NCBI RefSeq assembly: GCF_000317595.1
Contig: NZ_AEJC01000293.1
Coordinates: 1 to 64,000 of the forward strand
Direction of reading: 5' to 3'
DNA: 64,000 nt
Source of the DNA: Streptomyces ipomoeae 91-03
GTDB taxonomy: Bacteria > Actinomycetota > Actinomycetes > Streptomycetales > Streptomycetaceae
The position numbers were made by a program, and so were the translations under genes. Each line of letters begins with the position of its first letter. Within the stretch, counting starts at the first letter, position 1. Below the pieces are notes generated by a model. That model did not search any database and had not been told where the DNA came from. It saw only the letters and a list, made by a program, of their open reading frames with translations. Shown one piece after another: positions 3,487-53,678 of this stretch.

Positions 3487-3491
3487 CTTTG

Positions 3492-14818: not shown

Positions 14819-14880
14819 CGCCGTCGATCCGTACGTGAGCACGATGAGGCAGTTCAGTAGTGAGTGAAGGAGAGAGCCTG

Positions 14881-22733: not shown

Positions 22734-22742
22734 GTCGCCGTC

Positions 22743-37960: not shown

Positions 37961-38007
37961 CTTCCGTCTTCCTCTCCCTGTCCTTGGCTTATGGCTGGCG
38001 TGGCGCG

Positions 38008-38388: not shown

Positions 38389-38539
38389 CGCGGAGTGTTG
38401 CAAGAGGAGTCCTAACTCGGTTGGAGGCGTTCTCGGTCAGCGGCGCTGGGCGGGGCCTCGTCACGCGGCTCTCGGCCCCTGCAGAACGAGGGGCGAGACG
38501 CGTGGGACTTCGGTGATGGCGATTCTTGGTGTCGACCGC

Positions 38540-38684
38540 AGATGCTCTTCGCCTCACTGCGCTCACCGTTCAGATCGGCACCGGCCGTCTTGCAGTTCCG
38601 GCCCAAATGCCGCGCAATCGCAGAGATCGTCCATACCTGGCGATGCAGGGCGTGAGCATCCACGTCTTCCTCCCGCGTGAGCAT
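38540..38684 (-). pseudogene. IS21-family IstA transposase, N-terminal remnant
   Basis: The first 42 codons (MLTREEDVDAHALHRQ, then WTISAIARHLGRNCKT and DLNGER) match my memory of the N-terminus of IS21-type IstA transposases, which begins with this helix-turn-helix. After that the sequence has no transposase features, and neither the catalytic domain nor IstB is present. It is an inactive scrap of a former insertion next to the excisionase gene. Confidence 0.72.
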
Positions 38685-38871: not shown

Positions 38872-39915
38872 TCAGTATGTTACGAAGACCCTGCGCTCCG
38901 GCCCGTCTACGCGGATAGTCCCGCCGCAGGGGATTACGAGCTGCGGGTCCGTGTGCCCAAGGTCAACGTCGAACACCGCCACCACGTGAGGTGCGTACTC
39001 TGTCAGGGCTCGCAGCACTGCCTCTCGCTGTGCCTTGCGAAACTGTGCCTTCTGGTCAGCGTCCAGTGTGCGATGACGGGACCACGTCTTCGGACGGCCC
39101 ATCAACAAGGCGGAAAACTGTTCGAGCAGACCTCGCTCTCCCATGCTGCGCATGATCACATACACTTCCTCGGCGCTTGGCATGGAATCGCCGGTTTCCA
39201 GGAACAGCACGCCACCGGAGTACACCTCGACTGGTTGCACTGCCAGGTCCGCCATCAGTAGCCAAGACACGATCTCCAGGTCGCCTCCCCAGCTGGCGCC
39301 TTCCACTACTCGATTTGCGTTGTGCCAGATCCAGCCATCGGCGGGTTCCATCTGTGGTTCGACCTCGAAGGTCCTCGGATCCTGCCAGGAGCCGAGGACC
39401 TCGCCGAACTGGGGTGTCTGCCGGAGTTCGAACTCGCCGGAAGTGAAGAGTGCCGCTTGCAGGGATTCTGCTGTCATCGGGTGCAATGCGCCGGGTCGGC
39501 CGTACTGAGTCATGACCATCCCGCCGTGAAAGCTGACGATGCCCAGGCTCCGCAGGAAGAGCACCAGGTTGGTGTTGTCGCTGTAGCCGAAGAACGGCTT
39601 CGGGTTGGCGCGGATCAGATCTCGGTCGAGGTGGCGCAGCACTGTGATCTGGTCGGAGCCGCCGACGCTGGCGATGACTGCCTTGATCTGGGGATCAGCG
39701 AAGGCCGCGTTGATGTCGGACGCGCGAGCCTGCGGGGACGCTCCCATTGTGCGGGTGGTGGGGTATTCGACGGCCCTGAGTTGGAAGTCTTCCTGAAGCC
39801 TTCGCAGTCCCAACTCGTAGGGCAATGGCACCTCTCCGGGCAGGCCACGAGAAGGCGACACGACCGCGACGCAGTCGCCGGGCTTGGGTTTGGGGGGATA
39901 GATCGGCACGGCCAC
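38872..39915 (-). CDS. S66-family peptidase (LD-carboxypeptidase / MccF-like)
   Basis: A protein of about 347 aa. The start GTG at 39915 gives VAVPIYPPKPKPGDCVAVVSPS, the usual S66 N-terminus. The nucleophile Ser is in FFGYSDNTNLV, the Glu in GVLFLETGD and the His in DLGHTDPQLVIPCGG, giving the S66 Ser-Glu-His triad. The family includes LdcA, which trims murein peptides, and MccF, which inactivates microcin C by cutting an acyl-sulfamide or acyl-phosphoramidate adenylate bond. It lies next to a spare histidyl-tRNA synthetase gene, which fits an immunity role against an aminoacyl-adenylate mimic better than a role in murein recycling. The choice rests on context only. Confidence 0.82.
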   Translation of the reverse strand: MAVPIYPPKPKPGDCVAVVSPSRGLPGEVPLPYELGLRRLQEDFQLRAVEYPTTRTMGASPQARASDINAAFADPQIKAVIASVGGSDQITVLRHLDRDLIRANPKPFFGYSDNTNLVLFLRSLGIVSFHGGMVMTQYGRPGALHPMTAESLQAALFTSGEFELRQTPQFGEVLGSWQDPRTFEVEPQMEPADGWIWHNANRVVEGASWGGDLEIVSWLLMADLAVQPVEVYSGGVLFLETGDSMPSAEEVYVIMRSMGERGLLEQFSALLMGRPKTWSRHRTLDADQKAQFRKAQREAVLRALTEYAPHVVAVFDVDLGHTDPQLVIPCGGTIRVDGPERRVFVTY

Positions 39916-40078
39916 GTCGTCATGGTAGTTAGCCAGTTGCCAGATCCCTGCGAGGTCGTTGCAGGGCACGCCGTCACGGGCAGTTCCTGCGTCGTTGGCG
40001 GACCGCTGGACAGCGAAGGAGACCACGGCGGGCGACTGGCCGTCAGTCCGACAGTCGCCCGCGCGTCCAGGTCCTCGG

Positions 40079-41371
40079 TCAGCGTCCGAGGAGCTTGTTC
40101 ACCTGTCCAACGACCTCGCTGAGGGTCACCTCGATCTGCTCGCGGGTGGCCAGGTTCCGAACCGCTACGAGTCCGCGCTCCCACTCACTTGGAGCGATGA
40201 CGACGGCGACCTGGGCCCCGACCTGGTCGGCGCGCACCAGCTCCTTGCTCAGCTTTCGAGGCTCCAACGGCGTAGACGTGCGGATGCCGGCCAGCCGCAA
40301 GTCCCGGGCGACGGTCCGACAATCAGGCAGCAAGTCCGCACCGACAGGGATCACCACGGCGTCCACCTCGGCGCGGGGCTCCGGCAGCAGCCCGTGTCCC
40401 TCCATGAAGTCGTGGAGTGTCACGTCGCCCATGCCGAACCCAATGCCCGGAATCCTCTGGGTCGTGAAGAGCCCGGCCAGGTCCTCGTACCGGCCGCCGC
40501 CGAAGAGCGAGCGGCTGTTCTGGGGGTGTTGGTCGAAGACCTCGAACACGGTTCCGGTGTAGTACTGCAGGCCACGCACGATGAAGGGGTCGAAGGTGAC
40601 CAGGTCCCGGGAGTCACCCGCCAGGATCTGCGCCAGCATGGACCGGCTGCGGGCCTCCTCGGAGACATAGTCCAAGACGCCGGCACCGCTGCTCAGGACC
40701 TCTTCGAGAAGGTCGAACCGCTTCTCGTCGATCCCAAGGCCCTCGGCGTCGGCGACGAGCTGCTCGCGGGGGTATTTCGCCCATCGGTCGATCAGTGACG
40801 ATGTCTCCTGCAGCTTGTCGGCCGGGACTTTGACCACGTCGAGGAGGATGCTCTCCAGGAGGACGCGGTCGCCAGCCCGTAGCACCCACATATCCCTGGT
40901 TGCACCGATTGCGGCCATCATGTCGTGGATCAGTTCGAAGATCTCGATCTCGCAGCTCACGCTGTCGGAACCGAAGATGTCCACGTTGATCTGCAGGTGC
41001 TCTCGCATACGGCCGCGCTGTGGGCGTTCATAGCGGTGGCAGATGACGTGGCTGTACCAGCGAACTGGCAACTGAAGTTGTCCGGCGTTGCCAGCGATCA
41101 TGCGGGCGACCGACGGCGTCATCTCCGGGCGCAGCGCGAGCCGGCGACCGCCTCGGTCGGTGAGGGAGTAGAGCTGCTGGTTGGCGATCTCCTGGCCGGA
41201 CTTCGCCTCGTAGATCTCCGCCGACTCCAGAATGGGGCCGTCATAGCGGACGAAGCCGTAGCGCTCGATCGCTTCGTAGAGCTGATGGAAGACCTGCTGC
41301 CGAACGGACATCTCCGAGGGGAGGAAGTCCCTCGTGCCGCGATACGGGGTTGTCGGCAACAAACGTCCCAC
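40079..41371 (-). CDS. hisS: Histidyl-tRNA synthetase (accessory copy)
   Basis: A 430-aa class II aminoacyl-tRNA synthetase. It starts TPYRGTRDFLP and has LALRPEMTPSVARMIAGN, the motif 2 region ICHRYERPQRGRMREHLQINVDIFG, the histidine motif RGLQYYTGTVFE (usually GLDYY), and motif 3 GFGMGDVTL with the GGGRYEDL loop. The C-terminal anticodon-binding domain (VDAVVIPVGADLLPD...) is present, so it looks active. The RPEMTPS and YRGTRDF forms differ from those I expect for the housekeeping actinobacterial enzyme (RPEGTA, KGTYD), suggesting transfer. The GTG start has AAAGG before it. Placed at the end of a biosynthetic block, it may be an inhibitor-resistant copy; a biosynthetic use cannot be excluded. 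Confidence 0.9.
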   Translation of the reverse strand: MGRLLPTTPYRGTRDFLPSEMSVRQQVFHQLYEAIERYGFVRYDGPILESAEIYEAKSGQEIANQQLYSLTDRGGRRLALRPEMTPSVARMIAGNAGQLQLPVRWYSHVICHRYERPQRGRMREHLQINVDIFGSDSVSCEIEIFELIHDMMAAIGATRDMWVLRAGDRVLLESILLDVVKVPADKLQETSSLIDRWAKYPREQLVADAEGLGIDEKRFDLLEEVLSSGAGVLDYVSEEARSRSMLAQILAGDSRDLVTFDPFIVRGLQYYTGTVFEVFDQHPQNSRSLFGGGRYEDLAGLFTTQRIPGIGFGMGDVTLHDFMEGHGLLPEPRAEVDAVVIPVGADLLPDCRTVARDLRLAGIRTSTPLEPRKLSKELVRADQVGAQVAVVIAPSEWERGLVAVRNLATREQIEVTLSEVVGQVNKLLGR

Positions 41372-41551
41372 CAGGGGTGCCTTTCTACGAGAAGCGAAGC
41401 GAAGTCCGCCACGGAAACAGACGAATCGTCAGCCTAGCAGCGGCGCGGTTACGGTGTGTCGATCTTGCATGTGTCAAGAGGGCCTCCGCTCGTGGCTTGC
41501 CGGATCCGGGTTCAGCTCCGGCAGGCCACGAGCGAGCGCGGCTCGGACGTA

Positions 41552-42619
41552 CTACTCAGTGCCCTCGAGCCTGCGCGGCACCAGGTCGTAGAACGCGAAG
41601 CGCGGGCCGGCGTTGCGTCGCGAGTAGACCGCGCGGCACGCGAGGTCAGAGCGCGGGAAGAGGTCGAGCCAACCGTTGTGCCTGCGCGGGAAGCCCTGGA
41701 GCGTCAGGATGTGCACCAGGTCCAGGTCGGAGTCGTTGTCCTGCCTGTCGTAGTACAGCTCGGGCTCCCCGAGAATGATCGATTTGAGCCCCCCGTCCCA
41801 AGCTGCGGCGAAACGGTTCAAGATCTCAATGACCGCCTCCTCCCCTTGCCGAAAGTGCTCGTGCAGGACGCCGGCTGCGAAGAGCGCGTCGGCCCGCGTG
41901 CATGCCTCCGGCCAGGTAGCCGCGTCGAAGGCGTCGGCGACGTGAAAGGACACACGCTCGGCCACGCCCGCCTCGACGGCCCGCTTGGAAGCTTCCGCGA
42001 TCGCCCCTTCGGAGATGTCCAGTCCGATGCCGCGGAACTGTTGGTCACGCCGGGCGGCCTCGATGAGGAAACCGCCAGCCCCGCACCCCAGGTCCAGGGC
42101 ACAGGTCGCACTGCGCCGGGCGAAAGCTTCGAGCACCACATCGATGTGATAGAGGTCGAACAGGGTGTTGCAGCTGCGTCCCAGCGCCGCGCCATCGCGC
42201 TGGATGTCGTGGCCGTAGCGCGCGGTTCCCCTCAGAAGGTCCTCGATGCGCTGCGTCACCGGACCGTACGCCTCGATGTAGAAGCTGAGTTGCGCGAGAG
42301 CGGTGTCACTCAACAGTGCGGCGCCAGCCTCGGTGGGGGCGTATCCGCCGTCGACACGCTGGGTGTATCCGGCGGTGGAGAGCCAGCCGAGCAACTTCTC
42401 ACCAAAGTAGGGATCAAGAGTGCCGAGGAGGTCGCCGAGGTCCGTGCGGCCCTCTCGCAGCCGCTGGAGCACTCCGGTGCGCATGAGTGCCGCCAGGACG
42501 ACGGCCTTGTGGTAGCCATCCAGGATCTGCGGCATGTCGGACAGCCGGTAGGCGCTCCATGCCTGTTCGGTGTGCTCGTCCTGGAGCTCGACACTGCGGT
42601 GGTCGTAGCGGGTGATCAC
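41552..42619 (-). CDS. SAM-dependent methyltransferase (class I)
   Basis: A 355-aa protein. The N-terminal 130 residues are a helical winged-helix-like region (DGYHKAVVLAALMRTGVLQRL, FGEKLLGWLSTAGYTQRVDGGYAPTE), as in natural-product O-methyltransferases. The Rossmann domain has motif I CALDLGCGAGGFLIEAA, an acidic IGLDISEGAI, and VADAFDAATWP. The end ISRRNAGPRFAFYDLVPRRL-like region is typical of small-molecule enzymes. GTG start, with AGGAGGAGC before it and a 4-base overlap with the aminotransferase gene. Last gene of the tightly overlapping operon; a 180-base gap separates it from the HisRS gene. Substrate unknown. Confidence 0.84.
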   Translation of the reverse strand: MITRYDHRSVELQDEHTEQAWSAYRLSDMPQILDGYHKAVVLAALMRTGVLQRLREGRTDLGDLLGTLDPYFGEKLLGWLSTAGYTQRVDGGYAPTEAGAALLSDTALAQLSFYIEAYGPVTQRIEDLLRGTARYGHDIQRDGAALGRSCNTLFDLYHIDVVLEAFARRSATCALDLGCGAGGFLIEAARRDQQFRGIGLDISEGAIAEASKRAVEAGVAERVSFHVADAFDAATWPEACTRADALFAAGVLHEHFRQGEEAVIEILNRFAAAWDGGLKSIILGEPELYYDRQDNDSDLDLVHILTLQGFPRRHNGWLDLFPRSDLACRAVYSRRNAGPRFAFYDLVPRRLEGTE

Positions 42620-43563
42620 GATGCTGCTCCTCCTGTGCTGAGTGATGAGGGATTGCAGGGGGTGAGCCAGTCGCCACAGGTGGGGTCAAGGCCCCGGACG
42701 ACCTTTTGATAGCGACTGGCAAGCTCGTCGGCGGCCGGGCTGGTGCCGTTCCCGATGGTCTTGTGCTCGACGGAGCGCACGGCGCGGATCTCCGCACCTG
42801 TCCCCGTGAGGAACAGCTCGTCGGCGCCAAGGACCTCGTCCAGTCGGAGCGACCGCTCGGTCACCTGGAGGCCGGCCGCGGGGGCCAGGGCGAAGACGCT
42901 CGATCGCGTGATTCCCGGCAGAGCGCCCTGCGGCAGTCCCGGGCTGATCAGTTCGTCTCCGATGCGGATGAAGAGATTGGCTCCGGTTGACTCCACGACG
43001 TGGCCGGCCTCGTCGAGGAGCAGCGCATCGTCATAGCCCCGTCGGACCGCGTCGGCCTTCGCGAGCATGAGTGGGCCGTAGCTTCCGTTGGCTTTCGCGC
43101 CGGGCGGAAGGATCGCCGGGCCGGGCCTGCGCCACGGACTGATCGTCAGCTGAAGATCGCCTGCTTGCAGGAGGCCACCCCAGGCGGTGACCAGGACTAT
43201 CGCCCGCGCGGTGCCGACCGTCGGGTCGTTACCAACGCCGCCTGTGTGTAGATGGATGACCGGGCGTACGTAGCAGGCGTCATGTCCGCTGGCGCCTACG
43301 GTCTCCACGACCGCGCGACGAAGGTCCTCCTCGGTCCAGGGGATCACGTCCAGCGGAGGATAGAGGCGGGCCGACGCGAACAGGCGGCTGATGTGCTCGG
43401 CGAGCCGGAAGGCGCTTGGGCCGCGGGGAGTTGGGTAGACCCGGATGCCTTCGAACACGCCGTAGCCGTAGTGAAAGCTGGGCGACCAGGCTTCAGGGCG
43501 AGCCGCAGCCTCGTCCAGAAGTGCTCCGTCGACCCAGGCAACGGCGCCTGCTCCGCCGGTCAT
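42616..43563 (-). CDS. Branched-chain-type class IV aminotransferase
   Basis: A 315-aa PLP enzyme of the IlvE/DAAT fold. Recognisable segments are VAWVDGALLDEA, FHYGYGVFEGIRVYPTPRG, YVRPVIHLHTGGVGND, GAKANGSYGPLMLAKADAVRRGYDDALLLDEAG, VVESTGANLFI and LPGITRSSVFAL. It would exchange an amino group between glutamate and a 2-keto acid. Its start ATG overlaps the ligase stop (ATGA). In this block it probably supplies an unusual amino acid for the AMP-forming ligase or removes an amino group from a precursor, rather than serving primary metabolism. Confidence 0.88.
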   Translation of the reverse strand: MTGGAGAVAWVDGALLDEAAARPEAWSPSFHYGYGVFEGIRVYPTPRGPSAFRLAEHISRLFASARLYPPLDVIPWTEEDLRRAVVETVGASGHDACYVRPVIHLHTGGVGNDPTVGTARAIVLVTAWGGLLQAGDLQLTISPWRRPGPAILPPGAKANGSYGPLMLAKADAVRRGYDDALLLDEAGHVVESTGANLFIRIGDELISPGLPQGALPGITRSSVFALAPAAGLQVTERSLRLDEVLGADELFLTGTGAEIRAVRSVEHKTIGNGTSPAADELASRYQKVVRGLDPTCGDWLTPCNPSSLSTGGAAS

Positions 43564-45086
43564 GAGGCCGTCCGGGTTTGCTGCAGGACCCAGCTTCTGA
43601 GCTCCGCGCGGTCGATCTTTCCCGTGGATCCAGTGGGCAGGCTCTCCCGGACGTACAGCACATCGGGCACCTTGTACCGCTCGACCCGTTCGAACATCCA
43701 CCGAATCAGTTCCTCCGGCGTGGGCTCGTCCCCTGGCGTCGGGGCGACGACGGCGCAGAGCCGCTCCCCCAGCAACGGGTCCGGGACCCCGCAGGAAAAG
43801 GCGTCGACCACTTGGGGGTGCTGCTCCAGGACGGCCTCCACCTCGGCGGGAGCGATCTTGTTCGCCCCCTTGACGACCACGGCAGTGCCGCGGCCCAGGA
43901 CTGAGATGCGGCCTCCCTTTCGAACTTCCACCTGATCCCCTGTACGGAAGAAGCCGTCCTCGACCGCGGCGCGGGTCAGCTCTGGTTGCCCGAGGTAGCC
44001 GCGCAGGACGCCGGCGCTGGACACCGCGAGAACGCCGCTGTCGCCGACTGCGGCGGCCCGATCCGGAGCACCCACGTACCAGCGCACCCCGCTCAGGGCC
44101 CGGCCCACGGTGTCTGGATGCGCGTCGTAGTCGGCGGCGGGCAGGATGAAGTCGGGGGCGCTGGTCTCGGTCAGCCCGTAGATGATGGAGATCCAGCTGT
44201 GGGGCAGAAGTGTTCGGTAGCGGTCGCCGGTCTGCGGGGGAAGCAGTTCGCCGCCCACGACCACCTGCTGGGGCGAGCGTGTCCGCACCAGCGGATCGCG
44301 TACTGATGGGTCTTCCAGTAGCGGCAGGACCTGCCTGAGCATGGTGGGGACCACCGCGACGCGCGAGACCCGTTCGTCCGCCAGCGCTTCGCAGAGTCGG
44401 CTGGGGGTGAACTTGTCCAGCAGCCGGACCGAGCCACCCGTACCGAGAGTCAGCAGGATGTCCCACTGGCAGAAGAGGAAGCTGGTCCGGAGTACTGCGA
44501 GAGCCCGGTCGCCAGGTTGATAGGCCAACGCCTCCTGAACCATGGCCAGTTTGGCCAGGATGCCGGTGTGGCCGAGGACCACGCCCTTGGGGATCCCGGT
44601 CGAACCAGAGGTGAAGATGACCAGTGCGGCCCCGGCAAGCAGCGGGTCACGTTCTCCATCCTGCGCGGACAACACCCGGAGCCCACCGGGCACGGCCTCC
44701 CCCAGTTCCCTCAGATCGTCGCGGGAGTGGTCGATCTCGCCCAGACTCACCGCTGCGGCACCGGTACGGTCCACCGCGCTGATGACCACCGGAGCCGGCA
44801 CCGAGGCATCGAGAGGGACGGCACAGCGTCCGGACCTCCAGACGGCGAAGAGGCGCACCAGGCTGTCGACGCTGTTGTCCATGAGGACGAGCACCGGTCC
44901 ATCGCTGACTGTGGCGCTGTCGTGGATCAGCTGGGCCGCCTCTTCGACAGCGGCGTGGAGCTGGCTGTACGTCATACGCGCCCGGCTGTCCGAGAGCGCG
45001 AGTCGGTCCATGTGCTTGGCGCAACTGAGCGCCAGATAGTTGCTCAGGTCCTGTGTGTCGGTCGGCGGCGCTGTCTGGGACGTCAT
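43560..45086 (-). CDS. AMP-forming acyl/aminoacyl ligase
   Basis: A 508-aa ANL-superfamily enzyme that activates a carboxylic acid as its adenylate. The phosphate loop is VIFTSGSTGIPKGVVLGH, followed by YGLTETSAPDF (A5), GVLRGYLGQPE, FFRTGDQVEV, and the catalytic Lys in PTGSTGKIDRAEL. It is a stand-alone domain with no carrier protein fused or nearby. GGAGGGAAGGT precedes the ATG, and it overlaps both neighbours by 4 bases. It may transfer its acyl group to an amine on a sugar or amino acid, or to CoA. Its adenylate product is interesting given the MccF-like and HisRS genes downstream. Confidence 0.88.
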   Translation of the reverse strand: MTSQTAPPTDTQDLSNYLALSCAKHMDRLALSDSRARMTYSQLHAAVEEAAQLIHDSATVSDGPVLVLMDNSVDSLVRLFAVWRSGRCAVPLDASVPAPVVISAVDRTGAAAVSLGEIDHSRDDLRELGEAVPGGLRVLSAQDGERDPLLAGAALVIFTSGSTGIPKGVVLGHTGILAKLAMVQEALAYQPGDRALAVLRTSFLFCQWDILLTLGTGGSVRLLDKFTPSRLCEALADERVSRVAVVPTMLRQVLPLLEDPSVRDPLVRTRSPQQVVVGGELLPPQTGDRYRTLLPHSWISIIYGLTETSAPDFILPAADYDAHPDTVGRALSGVRWYVGAPDRAAAVGDSGVLAVSSAGVLRGYLGQPELTRAAVEDGFFRTGDQVEVRKGGRISVLGRGTAVVVKGANKIAPAEVEAVLEQHPQVVDAFSCGVPDPLLGERLCAVVAPTPGDEPTPEELIRWMFERVERYKVPDVLYVRESLPTGSTGKIDRAELRSWVLQQTRTAS

Positions 45087-46255
45087 ACCTTCCCTCCGTC
45101 GGTCGTGGGCGTGATGGCCTGCTGGAGCCGCTGGAAGGGCAGCGGCGTGATGCTGTTGAAGGTCCGGGTGTCCCCGCAGGGCATCGTCCGGCGGCGCAGG
45201 TGGTCCCTCAGGTCTTCGACCAGATCGTCCGTCGGGCCCAGGAGCAGCCCGCGCCTCAGTACGAAGACCGTCGGGCCGTCAACGGAGGTCTGCGGTTCCC
45301 CGTCGAGGGCCACCACGATGCGGCCTTCGGTAGAGCTGTCGAGGACCGTGGCCTGTGCCGCGTCCTGCCACAGCTCGACCACCCTGGTGCACCCACGAAG
45401 GTGCACGCTCCAGCGGTCGCCTGACGAATCGGATTTCATGCCCTTCCAGCCGAGCTCCCGCTGCCAGGCGTCCAGGGCTTGGCGTACCTCGTACATGGCC
45501 TGGTCATCCGTGAGCGGTTGCTGCTCGAACAGTGCCTTTTCGCGGGCCGGTACGCCTGCCAGGAGTCGGCGGGGCGGGAAACTCTTGGCGACGACGGCTC
45601 CAGCGGCGACGATGCAGCTGTCGCCGATGTCCGCGCCGGGCATGATGGAGCAGTGGTAGCCGAGCCACACCTTGTTCCCGATGCGCACGCCCTCGAAGGC
45701 GGTGCTGTAACCGTCGAGGACGCTGTGGGCGAAGTGGTAGCCGTGGGTCCAGATGCTGACGTACTGGCCCGAACCGACGTCCGAGCCGATGTCGATCAGA
45801 CAGTTGGCGTTGAGGATGTTGTGGGGGCCGACGGTGACGCGGTCTCCGATGCGCACGGTGGCCGTGGACTCGAGGGTCCCCCCGCCGCCAACTGTGCTGT
45901 GCGGGCCCACGTAGAGGAGTCGGCCCGCGTCGAAGGCTCGGGCGACGATATCGACGCCGGTACAGATGCGAGCGGCTGGCCCGGTGCTGAAGCTGTCGGC
46001 GCAGAGGACCCGCACGCCAGCGGCGATCTCACTGTTGTCTCCGATGCTGAGGTGGCCGCCGCGCAGGTCGGCTCCCGCGCCGAGGTGGACTTCGCGGCCC
46101 AGGTGGATGCGGTCGCCCACAAGCCGGACGCCGTCGTCGAGTCGTACGCCAGGCTCGATCACCAGCTCGTGGGCGTGGATGACCACGTCCCGTCCCGCTA
46201 CGCAGTCTGCGGGCAGGTGCGCGCGGGGGATGGCGGAATCGATGAGCAGGGGCAT
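45083..46255 (-). CDS. Hexapeptide-repeat acyltransferase with C-terminal extension
   Basis: A 390-aa protein. Residues about 15-245 are left-handed beta-helix repeats (GRDVVIHAHELVIEPGVRLDD, VGGGGTLESTATVRIGDRV, WLGYHCSIMPGADIGDSCIV and AGAVVAKSFPPRRLLAGVPA). This is the LpxA/WbbJ-type fold used for O- or N-acetylation of sugars. A further 140 residues without clear motif follow, including a region resembling an acceptor-binding cap. The ATG at 46255 is chosen because GGAGG lies 6 bases upstream; an in-frame ATG at 46267 overlaps that site. It likely acylates the amino sugar made by the neighbouring aminotransferase. Confidence 0.82.
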   Translation of the reverse strand: MPLLIDSAIPRAHLPADCVAGRDVVIHAHELVIEPGVRLDDGVRLVGDRIHLGREVHLGAGADLRGGHLSIGDNSEIAAGVRVLCADSFSTGPAARICTGVDIVARAFDAGRLLYVGPHSTVGGGGTLESTATVRIGDRVTVGPHNILNANCLIDIGSDVGSGQYVSIWTHGYHFAHSVLDGYSTAFEGVRIGNKVWLGYHCSIMPGADIGDSCIVAAGAVVAKSFPPRRLLAGVPAREKALFEQQPLTDDQAMYEVRQALDAWQRELGWKGMKSDSSGDRWSVHLRGCTRVVELWQDAAQATVLDSSTEGRIVVALDGEPQTSVDGPTVFVLRRGLLLGPTDDLVEDLRDHLRRRTMPCGDTRTFNSITPLPFQRLQQAITPTTDGGKV

Positions 46256-46275
46256 GCGGACCTCCATGGAGTCAG

Positions 46276-47340
46276 TCAGCAGGGCAGCTTTGTCAGCAGG
46301 TCGCAGACGCGCTGAACGTCCGAGTCGGACATGGCCGGGTACAACGGCAGGGAGAGGGTTCGGCCCACAGTGGCCTCAGCCACAGGGAAGTAGCCGGGGG
46401 CGGCCCCGAGTTCTCGATGCAGCAGTTCATGACGTTGTGTCAATCGACTCGCGTCGACCTCGTGCTTGTGGAAGAACCCGAGGAGGCGTTCGCGTTCCTC
46501 TTCGTCGGCGCACCGAAGAACGAACCGATAAACGAGCCGTCCTGGATCGGGCAAGCCCGCCGGTGCGAGCGCATCGGGGCAGGCCGCGAGGTACTGGTTG
46601 GTGATCCACTCCCTGCGTTCCCGGACTTGGGCGAGGCGCGAGAGCTGCGAGCGGGCCAGCGCCGCGTGCACGTCGGACAGGGTGAGGGGCATCCGGGGCC
46701 AGCGGCTGCTGCGAAAGCTCGCCTCGGTGTAGGAGGTGATCCGTTCGGAGATCTCGGTGTCTGCGCTCCAGCACAGTCCCCCGGTGGCCCCCGTGAAGAC
46801 CTTCGTGGCGTAGAGCGAGGACACCGCGACCCGCCCGAAGGTTCCGTGTTCACCGTGCGGACCCCTGCTCCCGAACGAATGGCAGCAGTCCTCGACGAGG
46901 TTGGGGCAGATCTCAGCCAGGTCAGGCAGAGCTGCGGTCGCACCGTAGGTGTGCACCACGAAGGCGGCGTACGGCCTCCCTGTCCGGTCGGAGGCGTCCC
47001 GCAGCGACTGCGGAGACATGGTCAGTCCGTCAGGCTCGACATCGACGACGAGCGGGCGGCAGCCGGCCAGGCGAACGGCGTCGAGCAAGGCCACACAGGA
47101 ATAGGTGGGTACGGCGATGAGAGCGTCGGCTGGTGCCTCCAGGCCAACGAGTGCGAGGAACAAGGCGAGCGTGCCCGAGGTCGTGGCGACAGCACGGCCC
47201 GCGCCGAAGTACGCGACCACGTCCTCCTCCAGGCGCCGGCGCTCGGGCCCGGGGGCAATCCAGCCGGACTGGAGGACTCGGTCTACGGCGGCTCGGTCAG
47301 CCATGGTGACCAAGGGCGCATTGTGATCGATCCAGGTCAC
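46276..47340 (-). CDS. DegT/DnrJ/EryC1/StrS-family aminotransferase
   Basis: A 354-aa PLP-dependent sugar aminotransferase. It has FGAGRAVATTSGTLALFLAL (PLP phosphate region), AFVVHTYGATAALPDL, VEDCCHSFGSRG and the Lys in SSLYATKVFTGATGG (about 180), followed by a C-terminal domain ending YPAMSDSDVQRVCDLL. Enzymes of this family convert a keto sugar nucleotide to an amino sugar, or form an amino-cyclitol. GTG start overlapping the isomerase gene by 4 bases. The dehydrogenase, deacetylase and acyltransferase nearby suggest an amino-sugar or uronic-acid building block. Confidence 0.88.
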   Translation of the reverse strand: MTWIDHNAPLVTMADRAAVDRVLQSGWIAPGPERRRLEEDVVAYFGAGRAVATTSGTLALFLALVGLEAPADALIAVPTYSCVALLDAVRLAGCRPLVVDVEPDGLTMSPQSLRDASDRTGRPYAAFVVHTYGATAALPDLAEICPNLVEDCCHSFGSRGPHGEHGTFGRVAVSSLYATKVFTGATGGLCWSADTEISERITSYTEASFRSSRWPRMPLTLSDVHAALARSQLSRLAQVRERREWITNQYLAACPDALAPAGLPDPGRLVYRFVLRCADEEERERLLGFFHKHEVDASRLTQRHELLHRELGAAPGYFPVAEATVGRTLSLPLYPAMSDSDVQRVCDLLTKLPC

Positions 47341-48152: not shown

Positions 48153-48895
48153 GTCCCCCCTCCAGGTGCGCACCGGGCGATCTCAAGGACGGCGTGTTGA
48201 TGGATGAGTTGGCTTCCGTTGATCAGCCGCTGCTGTCCATCGACCTCGGTGGACCAGGAGTGCAGCGGGTCCTCAGACCAGCGCGACACCGTTCGGGACG
48301 GCGCCAACGCCGTCCAGCGCCACCACAGTCCCCGCTCTCGCAGGCCTGCTTCGACGGTCCGCCGCGACCACAAGGTCCAGCCGCTCTGCCATTCCCCGGG
48401 CGTGCCGGGGCCCGAGCGGCGTACCCGCACCAGGGTGTCCACGTCCTCAGGGTTGAACAGCCCGAAGACCACCAGCCGGACCTGTGGTGTGCCCGCGCTG
48501 AGCGCACCGTCCAGCCAGATCAGCGGTTCGTCGAAGATCGAGTGGACGCCGAGCAAGGTGACGATGTCCTGGTTTCGCGGCAGCGTCGTCGGATCGAGAA
48601 CATTTCCAACGCGCAGGTCCATCTCCGGCTGAAGCTCGCGGGCGTACTCCACCACCTGCGGCAATACGTCGATGCCCGTGCACCGCAGCTGCGGCCAGCG
48701 TGCGCGGAGTTGCTGAAGGAATCCGCCCAGCGAGCAGCCGATGTCCAGCAGGGACGCGGAAGGATTCGCATCCAGGAAGGGGCCGAGCAGATCGATGACC
48801 GCCGTGAAGTGCGGCTTGTCGAGGGCCCGGTCGGGCTCACCGAGGCAGTTCAGGTCGATACTGCGGGAGCCGAGGGGCAGCTCAGGTCGAGCCAT
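48149..48895 (-). CDS. SAM-dependent methyltransferase (class I), second
   Basis: A 248-aa protein with motif I SLLDIGCSLGGFLQQL, acidic GIDVLPQVVEYAREL and LRVGNVLDPTTLPR, then VTLLGVHSIFDEP (motif IV position). The C-terminal part holds FGLFNPEDVDTLVRVRRSG and SGWTLWSRRTVEAGL, likely forming the acceptor pocket. The ATG at 48895 has GAGGTGA before it and lies 14 bases inside the pentapeptide gene. With the methyltransferase at 41552 it makes two methylations possible in the pathway. Target (O, N or C) unknown. Confidence 0.82.
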   Translation of the reverse strand: MARPELPLGSRSIDLNCLGEPDRALDKPHFTAVIDLLGPFLDANPSASLLDIGCSLGGFLQQLRARWPQLRCTGIDVLPQVVEYARELQPEMDLRVGNVLDPTTLPRNQDIVTLLGVHSIFDEPLIWLDGALSAGTPQVRLVVFGLFNPEDVDTLVRVRRSGPGTPGEWQSGWTLWSRRTVEAGLRERGLWWRWTALAPSRTVSRWSEDPLHSWSTEVDGQQRLINGSQLIHQHAVLEIARCAPGGGT

Positions 48896-50303
48896 GCTGC
48901 TCACCTCGCAGGACGCCTTCGAAGGCGGTCAGGTAGGTACTCAGGGCCGCCGTGTCCGGCGATTCCGTGGCGTTGAGTGCCTCCTTGAGTCCGGTGCACC
49001 GGTCGGCGAAGAACGGCGGCTTGATGCCCGCGAGCTTGGTGCGGCGGCACGTCACCTTCACCCAGGTGGACTGGAAGAGCGCGGCTCCGGTCAGGTCCGC
49101 GTCCGTCAGGTCCGACTGGCTGAACCGGCTGTACGCTGCGTTGACCTCGCGCAGGTTCGCGTTGCTGAGGTCGGCCGCGATGTATGCCTGGACGAGGATC
49201 GCGCCGGCGAGTGAGGAATCGGCCAGACACATGCCGCGCGGCGGGTCTCCGGTGATCATCGCTCGGTAGAGGTTGCTCTGCGCGAGATCGGCACCCCGCA
49301 TGTCCACGTCCCGGAAAACGGCGCAGCGGCCGGTGAATCCACCCATCCGGGCCCGCTGGAGCTGCGATTCGACCACGTGCAGGTTCTCGGCCTGGGCGTT
49401 TCCCAAGTCGGCCTCGGTCAGGCAGGTCCTGTGCACGGAGGCGGCCACGAAGCTGGCCGAGGAGAGCTTGGCACGTGTCAGGTCGCTGTCGCGCAGCCTG
49501 AGCCCGGGAAGGGCGGCTGTGCTCAGGTCGATGCCGGGCAGGCTGCAGTGCCCGATGTCTGCGTCGGGCGCATGGAGGTCACGCGCGACCACGGTGTCGC
49601 CGCGAAGACCGTCGAGGCGCAGGCGCGGCAGTCTCGCTCCGCTGAGGTCGAGGCCGTCGCAGTTCGTGGCTCGCTGGATGACGACACCGGCCCCGCTCAT
49701 TCCGTTGAGTCGGGTTCCGGCCATGTCGCTCTTGGTCATGGTCAGTTGATCGGCGACGGCGTTGTCGAAGACGGTCTTGCGCAGGACGGATTCGTTGATG
49801 CTCGCGCCCTGCAGGTTCGCGGCCTTGAGGTCGGATCCTTCCAGGTCGCACTGGTAGAAGGTGGTGCCGGCCAGGTGGCCGTTCGGCAAGGAAGTGCCTC
49901 GCATGGAGCAGCCGTGGAAGAGGCTGCCGGTGGCGTCTCGCAGATTGCTGAGGTCGGCGTTGTCGAAGACGGAGGTCTGTGCGGCGAGGGCGTGGACGTA
50001 GGCGTCGCGCATTCTGGCGCCGGTCAGATCAGTGCGTTCCATTCCCGGGCAGATCATGGTGACCCGGTCCAGGAGCGCCCTGCGCAGCGAGGTGCCGTGC
50101 AGAGTGGCGCGGTTGAGGACGGCACCGGTCAGGTCGGCGTCCGTGAGGTTCAGGTTGGCGAGGTCCGCCTCGGCGAGCTGGAGTCCGCGTCCGGTGCTGT
50201 GCAGGAGATCTGCGGTAAGAGCTGCGATCTTCTTGAGGACGGGTTCGCGGTCTTCGGCGGCGTCCAGAGCGGTCAGGAGGCTCACATGCGTGGCGTTGGC
50301 CAT
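48882..50303 (-). CDS. Pentapeptide-repeat protein
   Basis: A 473-aa protein built almost wholly of A(D/N)LxX repeats from about residue 40 to 440 (LAEADLANLNLTDADLTGAVL, then ADLSNANLREVNAAYS and SQSDLTDADLTGAALF as examples). The fold is a right-handed quadrilateral beta helix. Pentapeptide proteins in antibiotic producers can protect gyrase by mimicking DNA (McbG, AlbG, Qnr), while others are scaffolds. There is no signal peptide or kinase/SMC partner. In this operon it may be a self-protection factor or a carrier for the pathway enzymes; sequence does not decide. Confidence 0.85.
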   Translation of the reverse strand: MANATHVSLLTALDAAEDREPVLKKIAALTADLLHSTGRGLQLAEADLANLNLTDADLTGAVLNRATLHGTSLRRALLDRVTMICPGMERTDLTGARMRDAYVHALAAQTSVFDNADLSNLRDATGSLFHGCSMRGTSLPNGHLAGTTFYQCDLEGSDLKAANLQGASINESVLRKTVFDNAVADQLTMTKSDMAGTRLNGMSGAGVVIQRATNCDGLDLSGARLPRLRLDGLRGDTVVARDLHAPDADIGHCSLPGIDLSTAALPGLRLRDSDLTRAKLSSASFVAASVHRTCLTEADLGNAQAENLHVVESQLQRARMGGFTGRCAVFRDVDMRGADLAQSNLYRAMITGDPPRGMCLADSSLAGAILVQAYIAADLSNANLREVNAAYSRFSQSDLTDADLTGAALFQSTWVKVTCRRTKLAGIKPPFFADRCTGLKEALNATESPDTAALSTYLTAFEGVLRGEQHGST

Positions 50304-50353
50304 CGGAATTCCCCTCTGTCGGTACGTGCGGGTCGAGTTGGTCCGCTGCCTGC

Positions 50354-51058
50354 TCAGCCCTGGGGCAGCGCTGCTCCCAGTCCGTGTTGGCGTTCCAAGG
50401 CGAAGGCTTCGGCGTACTCGGTGCCACTGAGCTGGCCGTGAAAGCGGTCGGCGAGTTGGACGGCGGCACCGTCCACGGGCCGGAAGCCCGGGCGAGCACG
50501 GGTGAATGGTTCGAGGGCTTCGGCCTTGCGCTTGAACTGGTCGCTGATGTCGACGAACACGGTGGGGCAGAACTGCGAGGTGGCGATCGTTCGAGGCTCG
50601 GCGGGGCGAAGAGAGAACAGATCCGCCCGGTGGTTGCGCAGAGCTGCGGCGACGGCTCGTCCAGTCAGGGCATGGTCGACATGCCCGTCACCGCGCCAGT
50701 GGGTGAGCACCGTCTGCGGAGCTATCTCCGTCATCAGCCGGTCGAGAGTGGCGACGAGGGCCACCTCCCCGTAGTCGGAGACCTGGAGCGCAGGCTCCCC
50801 GTGGGGCCAGCGAAGCTCGTAGCCGAGGAGTCCGGCGGCTCGTTCGGTGTCCGCGATTCGCTGTTCCGCGCTGGGGCCGGTCTCCGCGAGAGAGAGCACC
50901 GCTGTGACGACCCGCACGCCCGCATCACTGAGGCGAGCGATCGTCCCCCCGGCAGCGATCTCTGCGTCGTCCGCGTGAGCGACGACAACCATGACGGTAC
51001 GAGGCGGTGTGTCCATCTCGGCCCGCGTACCGATGGGCAGGCCCTCGTCTGCACTCAT
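50354..51058 (-). CDS. PIG-L/LmbE-family deacetylase
   Basis: A 234-aa zinc-dependent N-deacetylase. It has MVVVAHADDAEIAAGGTIA with the His-x-Asp-Asp metal motif (AHADDAE), SLAETG, RIADTERAAGLLGYELRW, and HWRGDGHVDHALTGRAV with the third metal His. The family removes N-acetyl from GlcNAc-containing substrates, as in GPI, mycothiol and teicoplanin biosynthesis. It overlaps the dehydrogenase gene by 4 bases. It probably frees an amino group on a GlcNAc-derived unit, which the hexapeptide acyltransferase or ligase then modifies. Confidence 0.88.
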   Translation of the reverse strand: MSADEGLPIGTRAEMDTPPRTVMVVVAHADDAEIAAGGTIARLSDAGVRVVTAVLSLAETGPSAEQRIADTERAAGLLGYELRWPHGEPALQVSDYGEVALVATLDRLMTEIAPQTVLTHWRGDGHVDHALTGRAVAAALRNHRADLFSLRPAEPRTIATSQFCPTVFVDISDQFKRKAEALEPFTRARPGFRPVDGAAVQLADRFHGQLSGTEYAEAFALERQHGLGAALPQG

Positions 51059-52410
51059 CGGGCCGATCCCGAAGCTGAAGATCCGCCGACCGGGGTCGGA
51101 GTGCCCATTTCCACGTAGCGGACCCGGGTGCCGGCAAATGCTCTGCGAAGCCGGCCGAGGCTGTCGATCACAGTCGGCGGGTCAGCAAGAGCCGACAGAC
51201 GCTCGGGTAGATCCGAGTACGCCGCATGCGGGGTGGCGATGACGAGTGTCCGTACCGATGCCAGGTCTTCCGGCCAGCTCAGCGCACTCGCGCCCTCCCC
51301 GCGGGCAAGGACTTCTTCCGCTGAGAGAAAGGGGTCGTGAAGTCGGACGTCCGCCCCGCGGGCAGACAGTGCTGCCGCGAGGGCGAGAGCCGGCGAACCT
51401 TGGGGCAGGTGAACGTCCGGCGCGTAGCTGATGCCGAGAATGCCAATGGGACCGTCGAACTCGCTGGTCAGCCACTGGGCAACCCTGCCGGGGTGAGTGG
51501 CGTCCCATTCGAGCGCGCTGTCCACGAGGGGCAACTGTCCCTCGCCGAGGAGTCCATCGCCGGCGTAGTGCGGGCTGAGCGGTATGCAGTAGCCGCCGAT
51601 CCCGATCGAGGGATGGAGGGTAGGGACGTTCCACTTGGTCCCGGCCAGCCGGAACACCTCGGCCATGTCCAGATCTGGATAGGCCGTTGCGAGCTGGTTG
51701 GTCAACACCAGGTCCACATAGCGATAGAGGTTCTCAACCGACTTGGACAGGGCCGCGCGGGTCCAGTCGCCAGCCACGTGAACCACGTCGCTGACGGTCC
51801 CATACAGATCGGTCACCAAGGCCCGGGATGCCGCACTCTGGGTGCCGATCACCCGGGGCAGACTGCGCAGGTTCATCTCCGGGTCCAGCAGCCAGTCTCT
51901 GCGCGGGGCCGTTGCGAGATGGATCCCAGCTTCCATCACCCCAGTCGCACCCGTGAGCAGTGGAAGCACCAGGTCCAACCAGCGCACGCTCACCGTGCTC
52001 TCGATGCTGACCAGCAGCTCCTTGTCCGTCCGGTACGCGGAGCCGATGGCCTTGAGTACGACTTCGAGGGGATCCCGGAACGCCTTCCCGCCGCGCTCAG
52101 TGTTGACGCAGATGAGGTGGATCTGGGCCTCGAGCGCCTCCGCGTCGTCCGGCGCAGCCGCGCGGAGCCGGCCGTCCCGGAGTATTCCCGGGTCCAGGTG
52201 GATCTTGTCTTCGAAGCCGGGTAGCGGCACCGTACCAGCGTTTATGCAGCGGACCCGGTAGGCGTCCACGTCCACGATCGTGCAGCGGAAGCCTTCTTGG
52301 GCGAAGGCAGCGGCTGCCGAGAGCCCGATGAATCCGGCTCCCCAGACAGTGATCCGAGCCGACCTGTCACTGATGCTTTGATGGAGAGGAGAGGGGTTGG
52401 TGGCCATCAT
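51055..52410 (-). CDS. Nucleotide-sugar 6-dehydrogenase (UDP-GlcNAc/ManNAc or glucose type)
   Basis: A 451-aa protein of the UDP-glucose/GDP-mannose dehydrogenase family. The N-terminal Rossmann fold has ITVWGAGFIGLSAAAAFA and VDVDAYRVRCINAG, then LLVSIESTVSV, LAGTKWNVPTLHPSIGIGGYCIPL with the catalytic Cys, and a C-terminal substrate domain starting GPIGILGISYAPDVHLPQGS. It should oxidise C6 of a nucleotide sugar to a carboxylate in two NAD+-dependent steps. Start ATG (or the next ATG) overlaps the HisRS-like gene by 4 bases. With the deacetylase it points to an amino-uronic acid unit. Confidence 0.87.
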   Translation of the reverse strand: MMATNPSPLHQSISDRSARITVWGAGFIGLSAAAAFAQEGFRCTIVDVDAYRVRCINAGTVPLPGFEDKIHLDPGILRDGRLRAAAPDDAEALEAQIHLICVNTERGGKAFRDPLEVVLKAIGSAYRTDKELLVSIESTVSVRWLDLVLPLLTGATGVMEAGIHLATAPRRDWLLDPEMNLRSLPRVIGTQSAASRALVTDLYGTVSDVVHVAGDWTRAALSKSVENLYRYVDLVLTNQLATAYPDLDMAEVFRLAGTKWNVPTLHPSIGIGGYCIPLSPHYAGDGLLGEGQLPLVDSALEWDATHPGRVAQWLTSEFDGPIGILGISYAPDVHLPQGSPALALAAALSARGADVRLHDPFLSAEEVLARGEGASALSWPEDLASVRTLVIATPHAAYSDLPERLSALADPPTVIDSLGRLRRAFAGTRVRYVEMGTPTPVGGSSASGSAR

Positions 52411-53678
52411 GCCTGCTTCCTTTCGGGACGTCGGGGAGCCACCACATGGCCTGTCAGCCGATCGCCGAGGGATGTCCTGACCGGGACTTGCCGCGTGCGG
52501 CCGACGACGGCCGTGTTCTGTAGGGTCAGTGAGCCACTGGCTTGCTCGCGTTCGCCGACGAGGGCGAACCAGACCAGCTCGTCACGGGGCATGCGCTTGA
52601 GCTCGCGGCCGAGACGTCCGGGACGCCAGTGTTCGATCACCTGCATGCCGCCGGCGCGGAGCTCACTTGCTGCCGCGAGGAAAAAATCAAGATCAGCTGC
52701 GCCGTGGACCTTCAGCAGATGGACCTGCTGCGTAGGACGCTCAGGCACCAGCTCGGCGAGTAACTCGACCGAGACGGCGGTGCTCCAACAGGTCTGTATG
52801 TCTTCCCGCAGGGCCCGGACGACGTGGTGGTAACCGCCACCATCCCCGAGCATTCGACCGTCCTGGTCGTGCACGGTGAAGCTCAGCCCAGCGCCATATT
52901 CGGTTGCGCGTGACCATTTCAAGGAGAAGGCGGTGGCAGCGCCCAGCCCTCTTGCCGTGCTGAGCACTTGGCGTACATGGCTGGTCCGGGATCGCAGCAG
53001 TGGTTCGGCACGGTCGATCGCCGATAAGGACTGCTCCGCGTCAGAGTCCTCACAAAGCGCCACAAGCTCCTGGTACCGCTGTAGGAAGCCCATCGCGCGC
53101 TGGTCAGCGACTGGTTGATCCTTACGGACTTGGTGCAGGACAGTCCGCGCCTGCGTCAGCGAGAGCCCTTCGTCCTCCGCCAGAGTGTCGATCATCTCGA
53201 AGTCGCAGTAGCGGAAGCCTGCGCCCGGAGCACGGCCACCCAGGAGAGCGGTCCAGAGGCGAAGGAGGGTCAGGTCCGCGCCGACTTCGTCCTGTTCGTT
53301 GCACAGGACAGCAACAGCCTGTGTCCAGCCTCGGCGGCGCTTGTGTCGATATCGTGCCACGGGGACGCAGGCGGCGGCCCGAACAGGCTGACCGTGCCGT
53401 AACTCCCCGGACCCTGCGATCGCCCGCAGCACTGCGACCAGGGAGTCCGCCGTCAGGGCGAGTTCCCTTCCGCCCAGGTCTGCGAAGCTGAAGATCCGGC
53501 CCGTTGCCGCCGTACCGAACTGTTCGAACGTCGCCGCATAGCCAACCGGCGACACTTGCACCGGGAGGAATCCGAAGCTGCTGGCCGCCGAACGGAACTC
53601 CGCCTCCGCCCGGAAGATCCCTGCTGCCATCGGCCCCACGTCGTCGGCGAATCCTCTCGGGGTTGCCCATGCGTCCAC
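52407..53678 (-). CDS. HisRS/HisZ-like class II synthetase paralogue, first gene of the biosynthetic operon
   Basis: A 423-aa protein that aligns by eye with the class II catalytic core of histidyl-tRNA synthetase, but degenerate. RIFSFADLGGRELALTADSL matches the LTDRGGRRLALRPEMTPS region; VARYRHKRRRGWTQAVAVLC matches motif 2; FTVHDQDGRMLGDGGGYHHV matches TVFEVFD...LFGGGRYEDL. The RPE motif is lost (TAD), while the motif 2 Arg and the Gly-rich loop remain. No clear anticodon domain is seen, though the C-terminal 90 residues may be a relic. The GTG start has AAGGAGGTG upstream. HisZ proteins regulate histidine biosynthesis and related paralogues act as ligases; here a ligase role using an activated amino acid is plausible but unproven. 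Confidence 0.7.
   Translation of the reverse strand: MDAWATPRGFADDVGPMAAGIFRAEAEFRSAASSFGFLPVQVSPVGYAATFEQFGTAATGRIFSFADLGGRELALTADSLVAVLRAIAGSGELRHGQPVRAAACVPVARYRHKRRRGWTQAVAVLCNEQDEVGADLTLLRLWTALLGGRAPGAGFRYCDFEMIDTLAEDEGLSLTQARTVLHQVRKDQPVADQRAMGFLQRYQELVALCEDSDAEQSLSAIDRAEPLLRSRTSHVRQVLSTARGLGAATAFSLKWSRATEYGAGLSFTVHDQDGRMLGDGGGYHHVVRALREDIQTCWSTAVSVELLAELVPERPTQQVHLLKVHGAADLDFFLAAASELRAGGMQVIEHWRPGRLGRELKRMPRDELVWFALVGEREQASGSLTLQNTAVVGRTRQVPVRTSLGDRLTGHVVAPRRPERKQA

Follow-up and report, generated by a model that had tools for sequence, protein, structure and literature searches.

A Streptomyces ipomoeae gene cluster encoding an intact and a degenerate histidyl-tRNA synthetase homologue, a candidate pathway to a histidyl-bearing HisRS inhibitor

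A biosynthetic gene cluster with two homologues of histidyl-tRNA synthetase (HisRS) was analysed in a 64,000-nt stretch of the Streptomyces ipomoeae 91-03 genome. This stretch, hereafter the window, covers positions 1–64000 of the 82,725-nt contig NZ_AEJC01000293.1; the genome comprises 10.4 Mb in 686 contigs. The cluster consists of 13 minus-strand reading frames running from 53678 down to 38872. One HisRS homologue is intact and divergent, and the other is a degenerate paralogue, an arrangement that repeats the plan of the ascamycin (acm) and SB-203208 (sbz) clusters; histidyl transfer from His-tRNA and a HisRS-blocking product are therefore proposed. We give an even chance to the reading that the cluster makes a small antimetabolite that carries a histidyl group, is assembled without a nonribosomal peptide synthetase (NRPS) and inhibits HisRS, with the HisRS-like protein transferring histidine and the divergent HisRS both charging tRNA and conferring self-resistance. 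The two homologues are encoded as follows.

52407–53678, minus strand: HisRS-like protein of 423 aa, with a match to Pfam tRNA-synt_His, a predicted anticodon-binding domain and active-site changes; relatives are 51–54% identical over 93% of the length

40079–41371, minus strand: second, divergent HisRS (hisS), above the cut-off of the hisS model and 28% identical to the host's own housekeeping HisRS

The degenerate HisRS-like protein

The HisRS-like protein scores 58.1 bits against the hisS model (cut-off 286.75) and 40.6 bits against the hisZ model (cut-off 271.65), missing both cut-offs by far. Its C-terminal part (approximately residues 313–401) has the features of a class IIa anticodon-binding domain, as seen in a HisRS profile match and in a fold comparison, where Nostoc HisRS reached Z 9.0 over 84 residues and ThrRS and ProRS domains scored equally well. 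The highest-Z rows in this fold search were ThrRS chains with large root-mean-square deviations. The AlphaFold2 model is reliable only in the C-terminal domain, and only that part was used.

Active-site residues, numbered as in the E. coli enzyme and with roles that we presume, were compared among six HisRS-like sequences representing two lineages (the window protein and five near-identical relatives). All six keep R113, R121, Q127, Y288 and the GGG loop, with E83 changed to D. A three-residue deletion in the motif-2 loop removes E115 in all six, and Y264 is replaced by G or Q, R311 by V or A, and F125 by W. We read this as a protein that has partly kept the histidine pocket and has kept a tRNA-type domain while losing the ATP/adenylation machinery; in this it resembles AcmF, which would make it a tRNA-dependent histidyl transferase. 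Its gene adjoins the dehydrogenase and PIG-L deacetylase genes in the seven loci examined, overlapping the dehydrogenase gene by 4 bp in the window. No match to the protein was found in phages.

The divergent cluster HisRS

The cluster HisRS keeps E83, R113, E115, R121, Q127, R259, Y264 and Y288. Its closest relatives in the Protein Data Bank (PDB) are 3hri (2e-80) and 3hrk (5e-79), which we take to be trypanosomal, and Thermoplasma HisRS 1wu7 (1e-75), followed by 1adj (1e-41) and 1kmm (1e-34), presumably the Thermus and E. coli enzymes. At positions 125 and 311, which we assume to sandwich the adenine of ATP, the housekeeping HisRS has F and R, and the cluster HisRS has H and T.

The distribution of this enzyme type was examined in genomes sampled from the genus, class and phylum. 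These searches scored the first few candidates per genome (for example, 4 of 16), so the counts of rarity are approximate; the census of HisRS types per genome scored all candidates. Among 392 genomes of the genus, cluster-type HisRS at E ≤ 1e-50 occurs in three others (G271, G037 and G156), with 71–72% identity. In these three drafts, whose completeness is estimated at 100%, no other HisRS was found (loci L037, L038 and L041), and the type can therefore very probably run translation. The archaeal/trypanosome-like HisRS is an apparent replacement of the housekeeping enzyme in these genomes, and the cluster HisRS probably works as a HisRS. No other cluster gene was matched by tblastn in the compared stretches of the three loci. 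The genomes of the window strain, S. cellostaticus and Streptomyces sp. CB00455 all carry an ordinary HisRS together with the cluster type (3/3). In the class-level sample, cluster-type HisRS was found in 2 of 296 genomes, that of the window included. By analogy with known producers, the divergent HisRS is likely a target that is different by nature and has been retained to provide self-resistance and His-tRNA.

Gene organization

The remaining genes of the cluster, from the HisRS-like gene leftwards, and one hairpin were annotated as follows.

51055–52410, minus strand: nucleotide-sugar 6-dehydrogenase of the UDP-N-acetyl type, from family models, with Cys275 and Lys223 motifs; 56–59% identity in other clusters

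50354–51058, minus strand: PIG-L/BshB1-like N-deacetylase, from family models, with AHADD and HxDH motifs; 64–66% in other clusters

48882–50303, minus strand: pentapeptide-repeat protein of 473 aa, from family models; 51% in loci L025–L027

48149–48904, minus strand: S-adenosylmethionine-dependent methyltransferase (core), from a family model; 34–35% in L025–L027

47337–48173, minus strand: sugar isomerase-like TIM barrel protein (AP_endonuc_2), from a family model; 46–54% in other clusters

46276–47340, minus strand: DegT sugar aminotransferase (ArnB/PseC-like), with the pyridoxal phosphate (PLP)-lysine motif; 41% in L025–L027 and 37% in a partial match beside hisS of S. cellostaticus and CB00455

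45083–46267, minus strand: hexapeptide acyltransferase, from family models, with a C-terminal part lacking a family; 40% in L025–L027

43560–45086, minus strand: AMP-forming ligase of the ANL type, from family models; 34–37% in other clusters

42616–43563, minus strand: class IV (IlvE-like) aminotransferase, from family models; specific to the window

41552–42619, minus strand: MppJ/2-ketoarginine-type 2-oxo-acid C-methyltransferase, from family matches; specific to the window

41487–41534, minus strand: hairpin past the stop of the methyltransferase gene, formed by an inverted repeat with arms of 18 nt; z −4.5 at −42.8 kcal/mol, a stability reached by none of 200 shuffles

38872–40026, minus strand: S66 peptidase of the MccF/MccC group, from matches to that family, with Ser149/Glu277/His358 motifs

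At these coordinates, all 13 frames are uninterrupted, and 12 of them were also chosen by a script based on third-position GC. The class IV aminotransferase was missed by the script because its frame extends upstream into a longer open reading frame (ORF) overlapping the ligase gene; its start was corrected to the ATG at 43563, which leaves a 4-bp overlap with the ligase stop. Searches of Pfam and NCBIfam back every family that an earlier reading of the sequence without database searches (the sequence-only reading) had named for the 13 genes. That reading had also described eleven overlapping leftward genes. Eleven packed minus-strand genes do form a block (53678–41552, from the HisRS-like gene to the second methyltransferase), but only 8 of its 10 junctions overlap, the overlap being 4 bp in 6 cases, and the other two leave 8 and 50 bp between the genes (counted with the listed starts and the corrected aminotransferase ATG). 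As the same reading had it, a HisRS and an S66 peptidase follow: hisS is set 180 bp away from the block, and the S66 gene begins 52 bp after hisS.

The hairpin in the 180-bp gap is a probable terminator isolating hisS, and given its strength, hisS is probably transcribed apart from the eleven-gene block. An Rfam scan gave nothing credible (one mir-920 match lay far under the cut-off), so that no T-box or attenuator is claimed, and a sigma-70 scan revealed no promoter-like site.

Related clusters in other Streptomyces

For ten of the 13 genes, tblastn detected homologues in loci L025–L027 and L032, with protein identities of 34–75%; among them are the PIG-L deacetylase at 66%, the dehydrogenase at 57%, the isomerase at 46% and the ligase at 35–37%. 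The grouping of the genes is not due to chance, as these ten recur together in a second, diverged cluster family. A relative of the HisRS-like protein occurs in 7 of 72,556 plasmid records, all from Streptomyces and 0.51–0.63 Mb in size (five S. goshikiensis, ADI95-16 and Mg1); the three of these plasmids that were inspected are linear, and hisS and the HisRS-like gene are found together in all seven. The genome collection adds S. goshikiensis JCM 4640, Streptomyces sp. CB00455 and S. cellostaticus DSM 40189, which were retrieved with an alignment query after a single-sequence pattern scan had found none. In the loci of these three strains (L029–L031), 10 kb on each side of the HisRS-like gene was compared, which brings 5 of the 13 genes within reach, and all five were matched by tblastn. 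S. cellostaticus and CB00455 carry the cluster-type hisS and the dehydrogenase gene on one contig, approximately 20 kb apart, and the HisRS-like gene is also present. The neighbourhood search that the sequence-only reading had proposed, with the HisRS-like protein as query, thus yields seven plasmid records and three genomes that share cluster genes.

The cluster HisRS is 70–75% identical to its counterparts in the other clusters, the higher values coming from stretches that cut the gene. The gene order HisRS-like/dehydrogenase/PIG-L is kept in the relatives with an epimerase gene inserted, and the remainder is rearranged. The S66, class IV aminotransferase and MppJ-like methyltransferase genes are found only in the window, with no tblastn match in the compared stretches of other clusters. 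Genes found only in the relatives encode a YggS protein, a class I aminotransferase, an NDK-like protein, an M16 peptidase, a protein without assigned family, an NTP_transf_5-like protein, three ABC transporter components, the epimerase and a regulator. In L025 (12015–17956), the M16 peptidase gene, the gene without assigned family, the NTP_transf_5-like gene and the ABC transporter genes precede the HisRS-like gene and have no match in the window. The protein encoded by a cytochrome P450 gene at L033 9844–11007, 10–11 kb past the window end, shares 46% identity with a P450 encoded on the far side of the regulators in the S. goshikiensis cluster.

The HisRS-like protein and the dehydrogenase (at E ≤ 1e-70) were each found in 1 of the 392 sampled genomes of the genus, namely that of the window itself. 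The phylum-wide search for the HisRS-like protein returned 65 of 396 genomes including its own; the other matches are weak (best 9.1e-8) and were taken for ordinary HisRS or HisZ.

Scaffold, tailoring and accessory functions

The scaffold genes suggest that a nucleotide-activated amino sugar would be oxidised at C6, N-deacetylated, transaminated and acylated. The dehydrogenase Cys275 and Lys223, the PIG-L AHADD and HxDH motifs and the DegT PLP-lysine are presumed to be catalytic. For the isomerase, no sequence match in the PDB was found. The approximately 150 C-terminal residues of the hexapeptide acyltransferase (45083–45545) have no Pfam match, yet they align to the relatives' proteins. In the AMP-forming ligase, alignment places Leu at the Asp position of the FD motif of NRPS adenylation domains, and the S. 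cellostaticus ligase, inspected by eye, has Ser there. This Asp is presumed to bind the alpha-amine in adenylation domains, and the ligase therefore probably activates an acid other than an alpha-amino acid. The MppJ-like methyltransferase, which elsewhere on Streptomyces plasmids finds only partial matches near 30%, suggests together with the IlvE-like aminotransferase a beta-methylated amino acid specific to the window variant.

No polyketide synthase (PKS), NRPS, carrier protein, condensation or ketosynthase domain was found in the 13 genes or in the scanned neighbouring ORFs, in agreement with the sequence-only reading. Among ORFs of 60–130 aa between 36 and 60 kb, the sole DS[LIVM]-type candidate carrier protein with high third-position GC lies on the strand opposite the pentapeptide gene and is not a plausible carrier. 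The same reading had suggested an amino-uronic or nucleoside-like product to which an amino acid is coupled without an NRPS; an amino-sugar/uronic product of this sort fits the gene content. It had assigned no role to either HisRS protein.

The S66 protein is nearest to structures of the MccF/MccC family (E 1.6e-41) and further from muramoyltetrapeptide carboxypeptidase entries (E 9.1e-13); Ser149, Glu277 and His358 presumably form its catalytic triad. Relatives with 64–71% identity are found on eight Streptomyces plasmids, and the one on NZ_CP108389.1 also adjoins a tyrosine recombinase gene. The S66 gene had been listed with the region in the sequence-only reading; it is absent from the conserved set, and a core role was rejected on the lack of a match in other clusters and the hisS-free plasmid settings of its relatives. 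It may be an accessory gene, with the protein possibly a detoxifier that cleaves an aminoacyl bond, or a passenger. A near full-length relative (40%) of the pentapeptide protein is encoded on a plasmid of Bradyrhizobium sp. 187 (L028 17878–20447), beside an annotated pantoate--beta-alanine ligase gene.

Proposed pathway

In the proposed pathway, the dehydrogenase, PIG-L deacetylase, DegT aminotransferase, isomerase, acyltransferase, ligase and core methyltransferase would build an amino-uronic scaffold. The HisRS-like protein would take His-tRNA(His) and move histidine to an amine of the scaffold, as AcmF does with Ala and SbzA with Ile. The divergent HisRS would charge tRNA(His) and stay active despite the product. 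In the window variant, the MppJ-like methyltransferase and the IlvE-like aminotransferase would add a beta-methylated amino acid, and the S66 peptidase, which is MccF-like, may hydrolyse the aminoacyl bond.

A number of observations weigh against this pathway. The catalytic half of the HisRS-like protein is poorly modelled (mean pLDDT, the model's own confidence score, 49), so the statements on its pocket rest on an alignment at approximately 21–26% identity, and the position of E. coli R259 holds R in the window protein only, with H in its five relatives. H125 and T311 of the cluster HisRS are also present in the stand-alone enzymes of G271 and G898 and are thus a trait of the HisRS type, not of the cluster. 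G898, from another actinobacterial family, carries the cluster-type HisRS (L051 4875–6164) beside a second HisRS; its genome has no dehydrogenase match, and the 8.3-kb contig holds no cluster gene, only a weak epimerase-like match. In the HisRS tree, which was built without the housekeeping row of G778, the window enzyme clusters with its stand-alone counterparts (89/89, which is under the starred level), apart from the HisRS of the goshikiensis-type clusters. This placement does not demonstrate a common history for the cluster copies, and recruitment may have occurred more than once. For the epimerase of the relatives, neither the window nor the remainder of the contig gave a match, the best in the genome being 38% on another contig, and the first of their ABC genes finds on the window contig only a 30% ATPase match approximately 5 kb beyond the window. 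The S66, class IV aminotransferase and C-methyltransferase genes lack conservation in the other clusters, and 5 of 5 inspected plasmid settings of S66 relatives (4–6 kb on each side) are without hisS or any cluster gene. The pentapeptide protein finds no explained role in the pathway. What the data show is the gene content, its conservation, the divergence of the cluster HisRS, the finding of its orthologues as sole HisRS in other genomes and the loss of adenylation residues from the HisRS-like protein; the product, acceptor, transfer reaction, inhibition and resistance are inferred from these.

Alternative explanations

The HisRS-like protein may not be a transferase but a sensor of histidine or of the product, a chaperone or a sequestering immunity protein, comparable to HisZ; the product would still be a HisRS inhibitor and the second HisRS a means of self-resistance. 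HisZ has a HisRS-derived fold that has lost catalysis and kept ligand binding. The window protein is likewise HisRS-derived, matches the hisZ model weakly and has relatives annotated as ATP phosphoribosyltransferase regulatory subunit. Unlike HisZ, it retains an anticodon-type domain and fits the hisS model better, and the position of its gene, next to the dehydrogenase and PIG-L genes with the short overlap, is as expected of a biosynthetic enzyme. We consider this explanation rather unlikely. An identity as HisZ itself was set aside, given the distance between its score and the hisZ cut-off and the retained domain. The presence of an MppJ/2-ketoarginine-type C-methyltransferase and an IlvE-like aminotransferase in the operon could also mean that this pair makes, and the cluster HisRS charges, a beta-methylated histidine or other imidazole amino acid that serves as an antimetabolite or part of the product, with no resistance to a HisRS inhibitor involved. 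The other clusters, however, keep hisS yet show no match to the methyltransferase and the aminotransferase, which makes this explanation improbable.

Two further explanations give HisRS no part as target. Pentapeptide proteins, which we presume to protect gyrase in some producers, could point to a product that poisons DNA gyrase, with the pentapeptide protein as resistance factor and HisRS incidental or biosynthetic only; its gene is conserved in the relatives at 51%. At 473 aa, this protein is more than twice as long as the Qnr/MfpA models (183–221 aa) and matches them only partially, and the 40% relative on the Bradyrhizobium plasmid (96% coverage) lies outside such a cluster, so that we find this quite improbable. 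A nucleotide-activated amino-uronic acid made for a surface polysaccharide or glycoconjugate would fit the dehydrogenase, DegT aminotransferase and hexapeptide acyltransferase, which are typical of such pathways. The sequence-only reading had named surface polysaccharide synthesis as what would speak against its view; no glycosyltransferase, polymerase or flippase was found in the block or among the flank ORFs scanned, which were part of the total. The conserved HisRS pair, the ligase and the pentapeptide protein would be out of place in a polysaccharide locus, and the cluster is rare and plasmid-borne in seven records, making this explanation very improbable.

Neighbouring DNA

Upstream of the HisRS-like gene, and divergent from it, the window encodes an HTH/AAA_33 kinase-like protein and a CPT-like phosphotransferase-like protein (54199–55817). 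On the other side, directly downstream of the S66 gene, lies a tyrosine integrase region with a LacI-type helix-turn-helix between the integrase parts (36221–38566). The plus strand from 13754 to 31504 carries genes resembling anti-phage defence genes, encoding a PD-T4-6-like kinase, a DrmD/BrxH-like SNF2 helicase, a 1638-aa type IIG restriction-modification protein (E 5e-302), a 2202-aa DruE-like helicase with an MrfA zinc domain and a UvrD/GajB-like helicase. This region is preceded by a tRNA-Thr gene (3413–3487) and a tyrosine integrase gene (10893–12434), and this arrangement is perhaps that of an integrated element.

Significance

Two reviews of aminoacyl-tRNA synthetase (aaRS) inhibitors name, in the parts available, histidinol and low-affinity synthetic fragments as HisRS inhibitors (PMC4695845, PMC9978631). 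Neither a natural-product HisRS inhibitor nor an aaRS-like transferase derived from HisRS was found in the literature searched, which consisted of partial texts and left most subscription papers and MIBiG outside. The sequence-only reading had not recognised the combination of genes. The cluster itself is indeed not described in the texts searched, as far as these were available (including PMC7916415, PMC9032320, PMC9290621 and PMC10635010), but it is not unique, having relatives in goshikiensis-type strains, CB00455 and S. cellostaticus.

If the proposed pathway is correct, the cluster points to a natural HisRS inhibitor and supplies a resistant target for testing, and histidine joins the amino acids installed by aminoacyl-tRNA-dependent transferases. 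It could also explain why some Streptomyces have an archaeal/trypanosome-like HisRS. A more far-reaching claim, which we advance tentatively and regard as possible though on the doubtful side, is that this would be the first natural product acting on HisRS, made by the first transferase known in secondary metabolism to draw on His-tRNA (a degenerate aaRS of class II, derived from HisRS), and that the archaeal/trypanosome-like HisRS spread in Streptomyces as resistance and replaced the housekeeping enzyme in some species. The occurrence of relatives in named strains, such as S. cellostaticus DSM 40189 and S. goshikiensis JCM 4640, makes the prediction directly testable.

Comparison with known systems

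Besides HisZ, the cluster was compared with four known systems. In the ascamycin cluster of Streptomyces sp. 80H647, AcmD is an extra, more resistant AlaRS that charges tRNA, and AcmF is an AlaRS-like protein without most of the residues for ATP binding and alanine activation that transfers Ala from Ala-tRNA to the nucleoside; the hydrolase AcmE reverses this alanyl transfer (PMC12945691). The window cluster likewise combines an extra aaRS, a degenerate aaRS paralogue and a hydrolase that may act on the aminoacyl bond. The two differ in amino acid and scaffold, with alanine, AlaRS and a nucleoside sulfamate in acm and HisRS and, as proposed, histidine in the window. Unlike AcmF, a truncated AlaRS, the HisRS-like protein keeps its anticodon-type C-terminal domain, and unlike AcmE, an alpha/beta hydrolase, the window peptidase is S66 MccF-like and not conserved.

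In the SB-203208 cluster of Streptomyces sp. NCIMB 40513, the IleRS-like SbzA transfers Ile from Ile-tRNA to altemicidin on the way to an IleRS inhibitor (PMC6331615, PMC12945691). This cluster also holds an MppJ homologue and adenylating enzymes (SbzD and SbzB/L are listed), and thus shares with the window an aaRS-like protein, which in the window is proposed to serve a pathway of the aaRS-inhibitor family too, an MppJ homologue and adenylate-forming enzymes (PMC6331615). It differs in using Ile and a class I IleRS, and SbzA is itself the extra IleRS, with slightly modified HIGH and KMSKS motifs kept. Carrier proteins and GNAT transferases belong to sbz, and none was found in the window.

Indolmycin resembles the proposed pathway in the use of a second aaRS (TrpRS) as resistance and in an aminotransferase and a 2-oxo-acid C-methyltransferase in the pathway (PMC6804068). 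It concerns Trp instead of His, the available text mentions no degenerate aaRS paralogue, and the cloned cluster had no detected resistance-related gene (PMC6804068). The S66 peptidase of the window is closest to structures of the MccF/MccC group, to which the microcin C immunity protein MccF belongs; its relatives occur on Streptomyces plasmids without such clusters, and an MccF-like activity is predicted for it. Collectively, target duplication and aaRS-like transferases are already known kinds, and an example derived from HisRS was not found in the literature searched.

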